Of a stretch of 32,422 nt of DNA, positions 12,454-14,387 are shown in pieces. Source of the stretch: Candidatus Kaiserbacteria bacterium (lineage in GTDB: Bacteria; Patescibacteriota; Minisyncoccia; Phycocordibacterales; UBA2100). Within the stretch, counting starts at the first letter, position 1. Each line of letters begins with the position of its first letter. The notes beneath the pieces were generated by a model. That model did no database searches and was not told where the DNA came from. It was given only the letters and a program-made list of their open reading frames with translations. Location of the stretch: the NCBI GenBank assembly GCA_027082835.1, contig JALWTP010000001.1:1-32422 (forward strand), in the 5' to 3' direction. A program made the translations under genes and the position numbers.

Positions 12454-12476
12454 GTGTGTGGATAAATAGCACCAGA

Positions 12477-12522
12477 GTGGGGCGAAGTGTGATAAGATTA
12501 CATTCAAGTGGGAGAAAGTGGG
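12477..12522 (+). promoter_or_regulatory. MraZ-box-like repeats at the mraZ promoter
   Basis: GTGGG 12477-12481, GTGTG 12487-12491, GTGGG 12508-12512, GTGGG 12518-12522; 10-bp phasing within each pair. TAAGAT (-10-like) lies between the pairs. Confidence 0.7.
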
Positions 12523-12553
12523 AAATCTACAATCTCTTCACAAAACACACACT

Positions 12554-12988
12554 ATGCTTCTCGGAGAATACACACACACATTGGATGACAAAAAGAGAGT
12601 AACGCTCCCAAAGAAATTCAAAGATGCTCTCGGAAAGAAGTTGGTTATTACCCGTGGTTTGGACAATTGTCTTTTTGTGTATTCAGAGAAGGAATGGAAC
12701 GCAATAGCGAAGCGATTGCGTGAATTAAGTTTTGCTCAGGCAGATACGCGAGGATTTAACCGTTTTATGTTTTCAGGAGCAGTTCAGGTAAATGCAGACG
12801 GGGCAGGAAGAATATTGGTACCGGATCATTTAAAGAAATTTGCAACACTCAAGACCAAAGTGGTCTTGGCAGGTGTTGCAGATCGGGTCGAGATTTGGGA
12901 TGAGGCACGATGGAATACTTACCAGAAGCGCATTGAAAGCCAAGGAGATGCAATGGCAGAAAAGCTTGGTGAAATCGGTGTTTTGTAA
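12554..12988 (+). CDS. mraZ: Transcriptional regulator MraZ
   Basis: 'MLLGEYTHTLDDKKRVTLPKKFKDALGKKLVITRGLDNCLFVYSEKEW...AGRILVPDHLKKFATLKTKVVLAGVADRVEIWDEARW'. Start 12554 rather than the track GTG at 12518. Confidence 0.95.
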   Translation: MLLGEYTHTLDDKKRVTLPKKFKDALGKKLVITRGLDNCLFVYSEKEWNAIAKRLRELSFAQADTRGFNRFMFSGAVQVNADGAGRILVPDHLKKFATLKTKVVLAGVADRVEIWDEARWNTYQKRIESQGDAMAEKLGEIGVL

Positions 12989-13019
12989 TTATTAGTTTAA
13001 GTAGTAAAAACGCATATAT

Positions 13020-13103
13020 CCAGCAACAACGGTTATTGGTTACATCTAGTTGCTGGAGGATTATCCATAGTCATGCGCACTCAATATTATGCAATCCTCC
13101 AGC
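13020..13103 (+). promoter_or_regulatory. Two mutually exclusive hairpins in the mraZ-rsmH intergenic leader
   Basis: CCAGCAAC (13020-13027)/GTTGCTGG (13049-13056) versus GCTGGAGGATT (13052-13062)/AATCCTCCAGC (13093-13103); they share GCTGG. Confidence 0.6.
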
Positions 13104-13109
13104 GGCTCG

Positions 13110-14015
13110 ATGTCGACAATAACACACACCCGACACATACCTGTTCTTTTACAAGAAGTACTCTCAGTACTTAACATACAAAAAACCGATACTGTCTTAG
13201 ACGGCACTTTAGGTGGTGGCGGACATGCGGGGGCTTTTGCGTCACTTTTAGGAGGCAAAGGACATTTCATAGGATTTGATCTTGATGATGATGCTATTGA
13301 GCGAGCAAAGCATAAAACTGAGCTCTACGATATACCAAAGACTTTTATAAAATCTAATTTTAGATTTGCACAGAAGGCATTGCAATCAAGAGAGATACCA
13401 AAGGTAGACAAAGCTTTTTTTGATCTCGGATTTAGTAGTGATCAATTGGAGGTATCTGGAAGAGGATTTAGTTTTCAAGGTGATGAGCCACTGCTTATGA
13501 CACTAAATAACGAAGTAGAGGATGGCACGCTGACTGCGTACGAAATTGTTAACTCATGGCAAGAAGAAAACATTGCCGACATCATTTATGGATGGGGAGG
13601 CGAGAGATATTCACGCAGAATAGCGAAAGCCATAGTGAACGCTCGTGCCAAAGAAAACATAAAAACCACAAAACAATTAGCAGACATTGTAGAGGGAGTA
13701 ATGCCGAGACGAGGCAAGATTCATCCGGCTACTAAAACATTTCAAGCACTTCGTATTGCGGTTAATGATGAAATAGGAGCATTGTCTGAGTTGCTCCAAA
13801 CACTGCCATCATTTATGAACTCCGGTGGAATTGTAGCATTCCTAACCTTTCATTCCATTGAAGACCGATTAGTAAAGCAGATATTTAGGAAATGGGCTCG
13901 CGAGGAAGGTATCGGAACTATTGTAACAAAAAAGCCAATTGTCGCATCAGATGAGGAAATAACACACAATCCTCGTGCGCGGAGCGCAAAACTACGGGCA
14001 TTTAAATTTAATTAA
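13110..14015 (+). CDS. rsmH: 16S rRNA (cytosine-N4)-methyltransferase RsmH
   Basis: 'RHIPVLLQEVLSVLNIQKTDTVLDGTLGGGGHAGAFA', 'FDLGFSSDQLEVSGRGFSFQGDEPLLM', 'LTFHSIEDRLVKQIF'. Start 13110 or 13089. Confidence 0.95.
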   Translation: MSTITHTRHIPVLLQEVLSVLNIQKTDTVLDGTLGGGGHAGAFASLLGGKGHFIGFDLDDDAIERAKHKTELYDIPKTFIKSNFRFAQKALQSREIPKVDKAFFDLGFSSDQLEVSGRGFSFQGDEPLLMTLNNEVEDGTLTAYEIVNSWQEENIADIIYGWGGERYSRRIAKAIVNARAKENIKTTKQLADIVEGVMPRRGKIHPATKTFQALRIAVNDEIGALSELLQTLPSFMNSGGIVAFLTFHSIEDRLVKQIFRKWAREEGIGTIVTKKPIVASDEEITHNPRARSAKLRAFKFN

Positions 14016-14030
14016 TAATACACACAACTT

Positions 14031-14387
14031 ATGCAACACACACTCACACACACAACACACACACTATACAAAACAGCAGATACAATATCTCGTACTTTTA
14101 GTAATTCAATACGATTTATATCAAGCGGACTCTTTTTAATGTCTATTGCTCTTTTAGTCGCTTATATGTATTTACTTATCAATTCAATTATGCTAACTGT
14201 AGAGCAAAAGGATATACAAAATAGTATACAAACAACACACACTCACCTCTCTACACTTGAGGGAGAATATCTAAACGCAAAAGAATCACTAACAAAAGAA
14301 AATGCTCTCTCTATGGGTTTCGTTTCAATTACTAACAAAACATATGCAAATAGAACAAGTTATATCGGTCAAGCTGATGTACAATAA
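14031..14387 (+). CDS. ftsL: FtsL-like small single-TM division protein
   Basis: 118 aa, one TM, followed by a helical region, located between rsmH and ftsI. Confidence 0.5.
   Translation: MQHTLTHTTHTLYKTADTISRTFSNSIRFISSGLFLMSIALLVAYMYLLINSIMLTVEQKDIQNSIQTTHTHLSTLEGEYLNAKESLTKENALSMGFVSITNKTYANRTSYIGQADVQ

Follow-up and report, generated by a model that had tools for sequence, protein, structure and literature searches.

Autogenous translational operators, such as the MS2 coat-protein/replicase hairpin and the operators of ribosomal-protein mRNAs, offer a frame of reference for the RNA element described here. The element would work like such start-codon hairpin operators, in that a hairpin contains or overlaps the start codon and a conserved loop is available to a protein encoded in the same operon; we do not claim membership in a named family. 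Those operators have a binding protein, whereas the reader of the present hairpin is a candidate only.

The gene concerned is rsmH (mraW), which encodes the 16S rRNA m4C1402 methyltransferase. An RNA of Actinomycetales, the mraW RNA motif (RF01746), was listed by Weinberg et al. (2010, PMC2864571) as a candidate likely to regulate in cis. The hairpin of the window, which is the whole 32,422-nucleotide stretch of DNA that was analyzed, is likewise a conserved structured RNA located upstream of mraW/rsmH. However, the published motif is an Actinomycetales element, and its covariance model does not match the window: no Rfam model, RF01746 included, had a match in 12950-13200 at E values up to 10, and at gathering score the whole window returned tRNAs only. 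Judging from Rfam and the open-access literature, the hairpin appears to be an undescribed structured RNA, and a very well-supported one.

Further context comes from a 2026 preprint on Bacillus subtilis, in which MraW (RsmH)-modified ribosomes were needed for efficient translation of mRNAs with start or early codons in stem-loops, ribosomes without MraW methylation translated start-proximal stem-loop mRNAs poorly, and the stem-loops needed no conserved sequence (PMC13317604). As in the cmpA and isp mRNAs of B. subtilis, a stem-loop lies over the start or first codons at the locus described here, and MraW/RsmH is involved. In B. subtilis, however, RsmH acts on other mRNAs that have a ribosome-binding site, whereas here the hairpin belongs to rsmH's own mRNA, in an order without an anti-Shine-Dalgarno (anti-SD) sequence and with a loop sequence conserved family-wide; dependence on methylation would here be hypothetical.

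The leader hairpin at the mraZ-rsmH junction

The window comes from a Paceibacterales genome of 571,735 bases and carries, on the forward strand, mraZ at 12554-12988 (PF02381, E = 1.6e-38) as the gene directly upstream and rsmH at 13089-14015 (PF01795, E = 1.3e-89). The stretch also encodes a penicillin-binding protein and a Mur ligase, and an open reading frame (ORF) of 118 amino acids occupies the place of ftsL. Upstream of mraZ, at 12476-12530, GTGGGG/GTGGGAGAAAGTGGGA repeats resemble MraZ-type TGGGN boxes for autoregulation.

The predicted fold of the leader at 12989-13140 has an energy of -43.5 kcal/mol (z = -5.0; 0 of 200 shuffles as good) and contains a single hairpin, made of 15 bp and two outer helices. 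The whole forward-strand hairpin (P1) spans 13032-13123, and the R1 covariance model matches it at 13038-13120 with 74.1 bits (E = 9.6e-20). In its main helix, a 5' arm at 13048-13062, which carries the SD-like sequence GGAGGA, pairs with a 3' arm at 13093-13107, within the rsmH coding sequence, through 15 bp that include 2 G-U pairs; both arms are supported by the fold and by two-sided compensatory changes. Outside it, ACATC (13042-13046) pairs with GATGT (13109-13113), as evidenced by the fold and by covarying columns 5-9/85-89 of alignment A3, and the fold adds an outermost helix of GTTATTG (13032-13038) with CAATAAC (13117-13123). Across the family, the helix measures about 20-25 bp and is broken by regular 1x1 mismatches. 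An earlier note on this DNA had described two inverted repeats, stems A and B, and both are present where it placed them. Stem B is real, although the 11 bp assigned to it fall short of its extent, which is that of the 15-bp main helix within the longer hairpin.

The apical loop holds the motif GTCATGCGCAC (13070-13080, forward strand), a putative recognition sequence, and the rsmH start codon. The in-frame start is ATG 13089 (MQSSSGS...), which lies within the loop just before the 3' arm and is kept in all 7 genomes of the window's genus; the start assumed previously, ATG 13110, gives way to it, as relatives read ACG at that position. An ORF of 33 codons from the loop ATG (13073-13174, forward strand) was also noted previously and is indeed present. 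Most family genomes begin rsmH in frame at the loop AUG, with residues such as SSSD encoded by the 3' arm. The ORF of the window is homologous to that start, is out of frame in the window's genus, and is a remnant or displaced form of it.

The 7 genomes of the window's genus, and G048 (L162) besides, retain the loop AUG although it is out of frame with rsmH. In G048 it starts a distinct ORF of 23 codons, the stop of which overlaps the start of rsmH (ATGACTAA). This leader-peptide arrangement arose separately from that of the window's genus. In genomes G009 and G033, the rsmH start lies 9-12 nt further upstream, and the AUG of the motif has drifted while GUC and CGCAC are kept. Because the loop is kept where its AUG is out of frame or where the start has moved, the constraint acts on the RNA, not on a peptide. 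A conserved N-terminal peptide was accordingly rejected as the cause of conservation, since the window's genus and G048 retain the RNA out of frame. An absolute recognition core would not, moreover, include the AUG, given its drift in G009 and G033.

Distribution and covariation

When RsmH relatives were drawn from a collection of bacterial genomes, 4 had the same hairpin and loop with arms that differed in sequence. The initial list of relatives was picked by the exact loop motif and was circular in this respect, so conservation was re-measured on leaders picked by the position of rsmH. The gene was sought in 70 genomes of the family and found in 65, and leaders were fetched for 62, which gave 63 with the window. 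The hairpin is present in all 63 leaders. GTCATGCGCAC is exact in 56 of them, and its core, CGCAC, is invariant throughout; the loop positions 3' of this core follow N-C-R-A, so that the whole reads GUC-AUG-CGCAC-N-C-R-A.

Searches with R1 found 64 of the 70 family genomes positive, with one site each, always at the mraZ-rsmH junction, and in the 6 negative genomes the rsmH match was absent or a fragment only. Where enough sequence was available, almost every family member has the C terminus of mraZ directly 5' of the hairpin. Among 397 genomes sampled across the order, all 12 positives fell inside the family and none outside it. In a class-wide sample of 384 genomes, the sole extra match was a weak one in G679, which was rejected as an unrelated hairpin that has neither the loop motif nor rsmH. 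On the genomes searched, the hairpin is a single-copy feature of one Paceibacterales family, some of whose genomes are named Candidatus Kaiserbacteria (L003 and L016); a mobile repeat was discarded as an explanation on the grounds of its single copy per genome. In most other families of the order, the mraZ stop and the rsmH start nearly touch. Elsewhere in Paceibacterales (L038, L044, L070, and L035), unrelated long hairpins occur just before the rsmH start, with fold z scores of -3.7 to -5.4.

Covariation indicates selection on the structure itself. RNAalifold analysis of 14 sequences revealed two-sided changes in 16 of 21 pairs. In an alignment of 57 sequences, which was fitted to the R1 model and so favors the structure, 90% of cells were paired, 17 of the 18 main-helix pairs had two-sided changes, 125 cells were two-sided (against 42 after shuffling and no more than 30 in slid controls), and the covariation score was 0.367 (0.238 shuffled and at most 0.13 slid). 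Parsimony on a tree built from flanking sequence only put the two-sided events that arose independently at 66 or more for the 21 modeled pairs. Together, the slid controls and the flank-tree count would be hard to explain without a selected structure. Within the window's genus, identity is 97% in the hairpin, compared to 64% in the adjacent mraZ end and 77% in the rsmH sequence that follows. The check that the earlier note had proposed, covariation and conservation among relatives, thus came out very strongly in favor of the element, and the note's suggestion of a cis-acting structured element for rsmH is borne out by the covariation and by the family-wide conservation. As a structured cis-regulatory RNA motif, the element has both a covarying helix and a consistent association with one gene.

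Shine-Dalgarno masking and other explanations

It had been suggested that stem B hides GGAGGA. The motif is present and paired, but SD masking was rejected as the means of control in an order without an anti-SD. CCUCC after helix 45 at the 16S 3' end was found in 0 of 31 Paceibacterales genes (9 from the family and 22 from others in the order), whose ends read, for example, GGATTCATTCC and GTGGATTCATTCC (L205-L241 and L244), whereas the same procedure, applied as a positive control, found CCTCC in 19 of 21 other Patescibacteria (L246-L273). The 16S gene of the window's genome is absent from the assembly, and a same-genus genome (G007) was used as a stand-in. As far as these 3' ends indicate, anti-SD loss is order-wide in Paceibacterales; a published survey places Candidatus Campbellbacteria and Wolfebacteria among SD-scarce organisms without CCUCC (PMC10783764). 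Because of this loss, a hidden SD cannot work in the usual way, and no functional SD:anti-SD interaction was found in the order. SD-like words precede 4 of 25 listed starts in the window, which is near chance (12% of random 20-mers), and several relatives carry, in place of GGAGG, paired variants such as GAAGGA, GGAAGA, and GGAGAA. Several window starts (e.g., mraZ at 12554 and an ORF at 14031) have ACACACA-rich sequence before or just after them and no SD, which is possibly an SD-independent initiation context.

These data bear on a classical SD-sequestering switch, in which stems A and B would alternate to expose or hide GGAGGA. The pairing of GGAGGA in stem B and the overlap of the two stems in the window agree with such a switch; nevertheless, the missing CCUCC, the near-chance frequency of SD-like words, and the swapped GGAGG core make it very improbable, as does stem A itself. 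Only in the window does stem A form a perfect 8-mer, and it is missing from same-genus and family relatives; equally good stem A-like matches, with G-U allowed, are sporadic (5 other genomes) and at chance level. The mutually exclusive A/B pair was dropped because stem A is window-specific, and two conserved, mutually exclusive structures were not found. A downstream competing hairpin (P2), in which CGGTGYCGTCA pairs with GACACCG, reaches at most 5% of shuffles in about 20 of 58 genomes (about 3 expected), although it is not significant in the window (25 of 100 shuffles); P2 is a possible second state, which may make a real two-state switch, in part of the family but not in the window. After the 3' arm in family leaders such as those of G101, G104, and G106 (L153, L167, and L149), CGGTGYCGTCA can pair with the outer 5' strand or with a GACACCG-like segment, and the latter pairing, with the segment downstream, is enriched in part of genus g3.

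Other explanations dispense with SD masking. The inverted repeat is near-symmetric and R1 weakly matches the reverse strand too, as would be expected of a DNA-level palindrome that serves as a dimeric regulator site (for MraZ or another protein) or as a recombination site. We give such a palindrome very little credence, since forward scores are well above reverse in most genomes, the element occurs as one copy in one fixed place, and G-U cells outnumber A-C cells (83 versus 30), where DNA would give equal frequencies and plus-strand RNA is favored. It is also quite unlikely that the long helix, with its regular mismatches, serves in RNA processing or stability as a double-stranded target of RNase III or a different nuclease between the two genes, because a cut there would cost rsmH its start codon or its first codons and because conservation falls on the loop and not on any cleavage position in the stem. 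RsmH is S-adenosylmethionine dependent, which, with the highly conserved loop, brings to mind a small-molecule riboswitch in which the loop would serve as aptamer (e.g., for S-adenosylmethionine or S-adenosylhomocysteine); a lone hairpin that has no conserved junction, detectable pseudoknot, or Rfam match is, however, a most improbable riboswitch. Finally, initiation might need RsmH-methylated 30S subunits, with feedback, positive or via competition, on the enzyme's own synthesis. Here the start region lies under a stem-loop, as in the B. subtilis mRNAs cmpA and isp that depend on MraW (PMC13317604), and the hairpin is linked exclusively to rsmH. We consider this explanation possible but on balance doubtful: it does not by itself account for the near-invariant loop, the isp stem sequence can be swapped (PMC13317604) and a purely ribosome-state model would likewise require no conserved loop sequence, and positive feedback alone would be an odd design for homeostasis.

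Candidate control of rsmH translation

We propose that the element is probably a hairpin in the rsmH mRNA that controls translation in cis by occluding the start codon and whose loop is read in trans. The helix of about 20-25 bp closes over the translation start region, with the start codon in the apical loop and the 3' arm occupying the first rsmH codons. In an order without an anti-SD, 30S subunits depend on unpaired RNA around the start codon. By the principles of SD-independent initiation, a hairpin in the start region should restrict initiation, and a closed hairpin should keep rsmH translation low; we infer that the hairpin represses rsmH translation, although activation or RNA processing would be compatible with the same sequence evidence. 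This agrees with the suggestion of the earlier note that translational control is more likely than attenuation.

The near-invariant loop would then be read in trans by a factor that decides initiation. Recognition in trans is suggested because the loop has no detectable pairing with nearby mRNA or 16S rRNA above chance. Pseudoknots between the loop and about 200 nt of mRNA upstream or 150 nt downstream did not exceed shuffles (median ranks of 0.63 and 0.55), and comparison with 16S rRNA yielded short matches only, mostly containing G-U, with a few 9-nt Watson-Crick matches in single genomes only. A likeness between the loop and the C1402 region of 16S rRNA was sought and found to be weak, so that rRNA mimicry is not convincing.

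The likeliest factors would be RsmH, which would bind its own mRNA and so exert negative feedback, or 30S subunits with C1402 in a given state of methylation. Taken singly, RsmH as the factor is an uncertain proposition that we would not favor as it stands, and the methylation state of the ribosome is to be entertained with comparable reserve. Autoregulation or ribosome-state sensing is a reasonable hypothesis. We advance only tentatively a feedback sensor, in which rsmH translation would be set by RsmH, or by an m4C1402-marked 30S subunit, engaging the AUG-CGCAC loop. If this is true, an rRNA methyltransferase gauges its own product on its own mRNA.

In bacteria of the candidate phyla radiation, known cis-regulatory RNAs are few, and this hairpin sits on the gene of a ribosome-modifying enzyme that is almost universal. 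Because the order has no anti-SD, the element would illustrate control via start-codon accessibility and loop sequence, not via SD masking. If the B. subtilis result holds here, the message of rsmH would rank with those that respond most to RsmH activity. Together with the 2026 report (PMC13317604), the hairpin offers a concrete way to test whether RsmH governs its own production.
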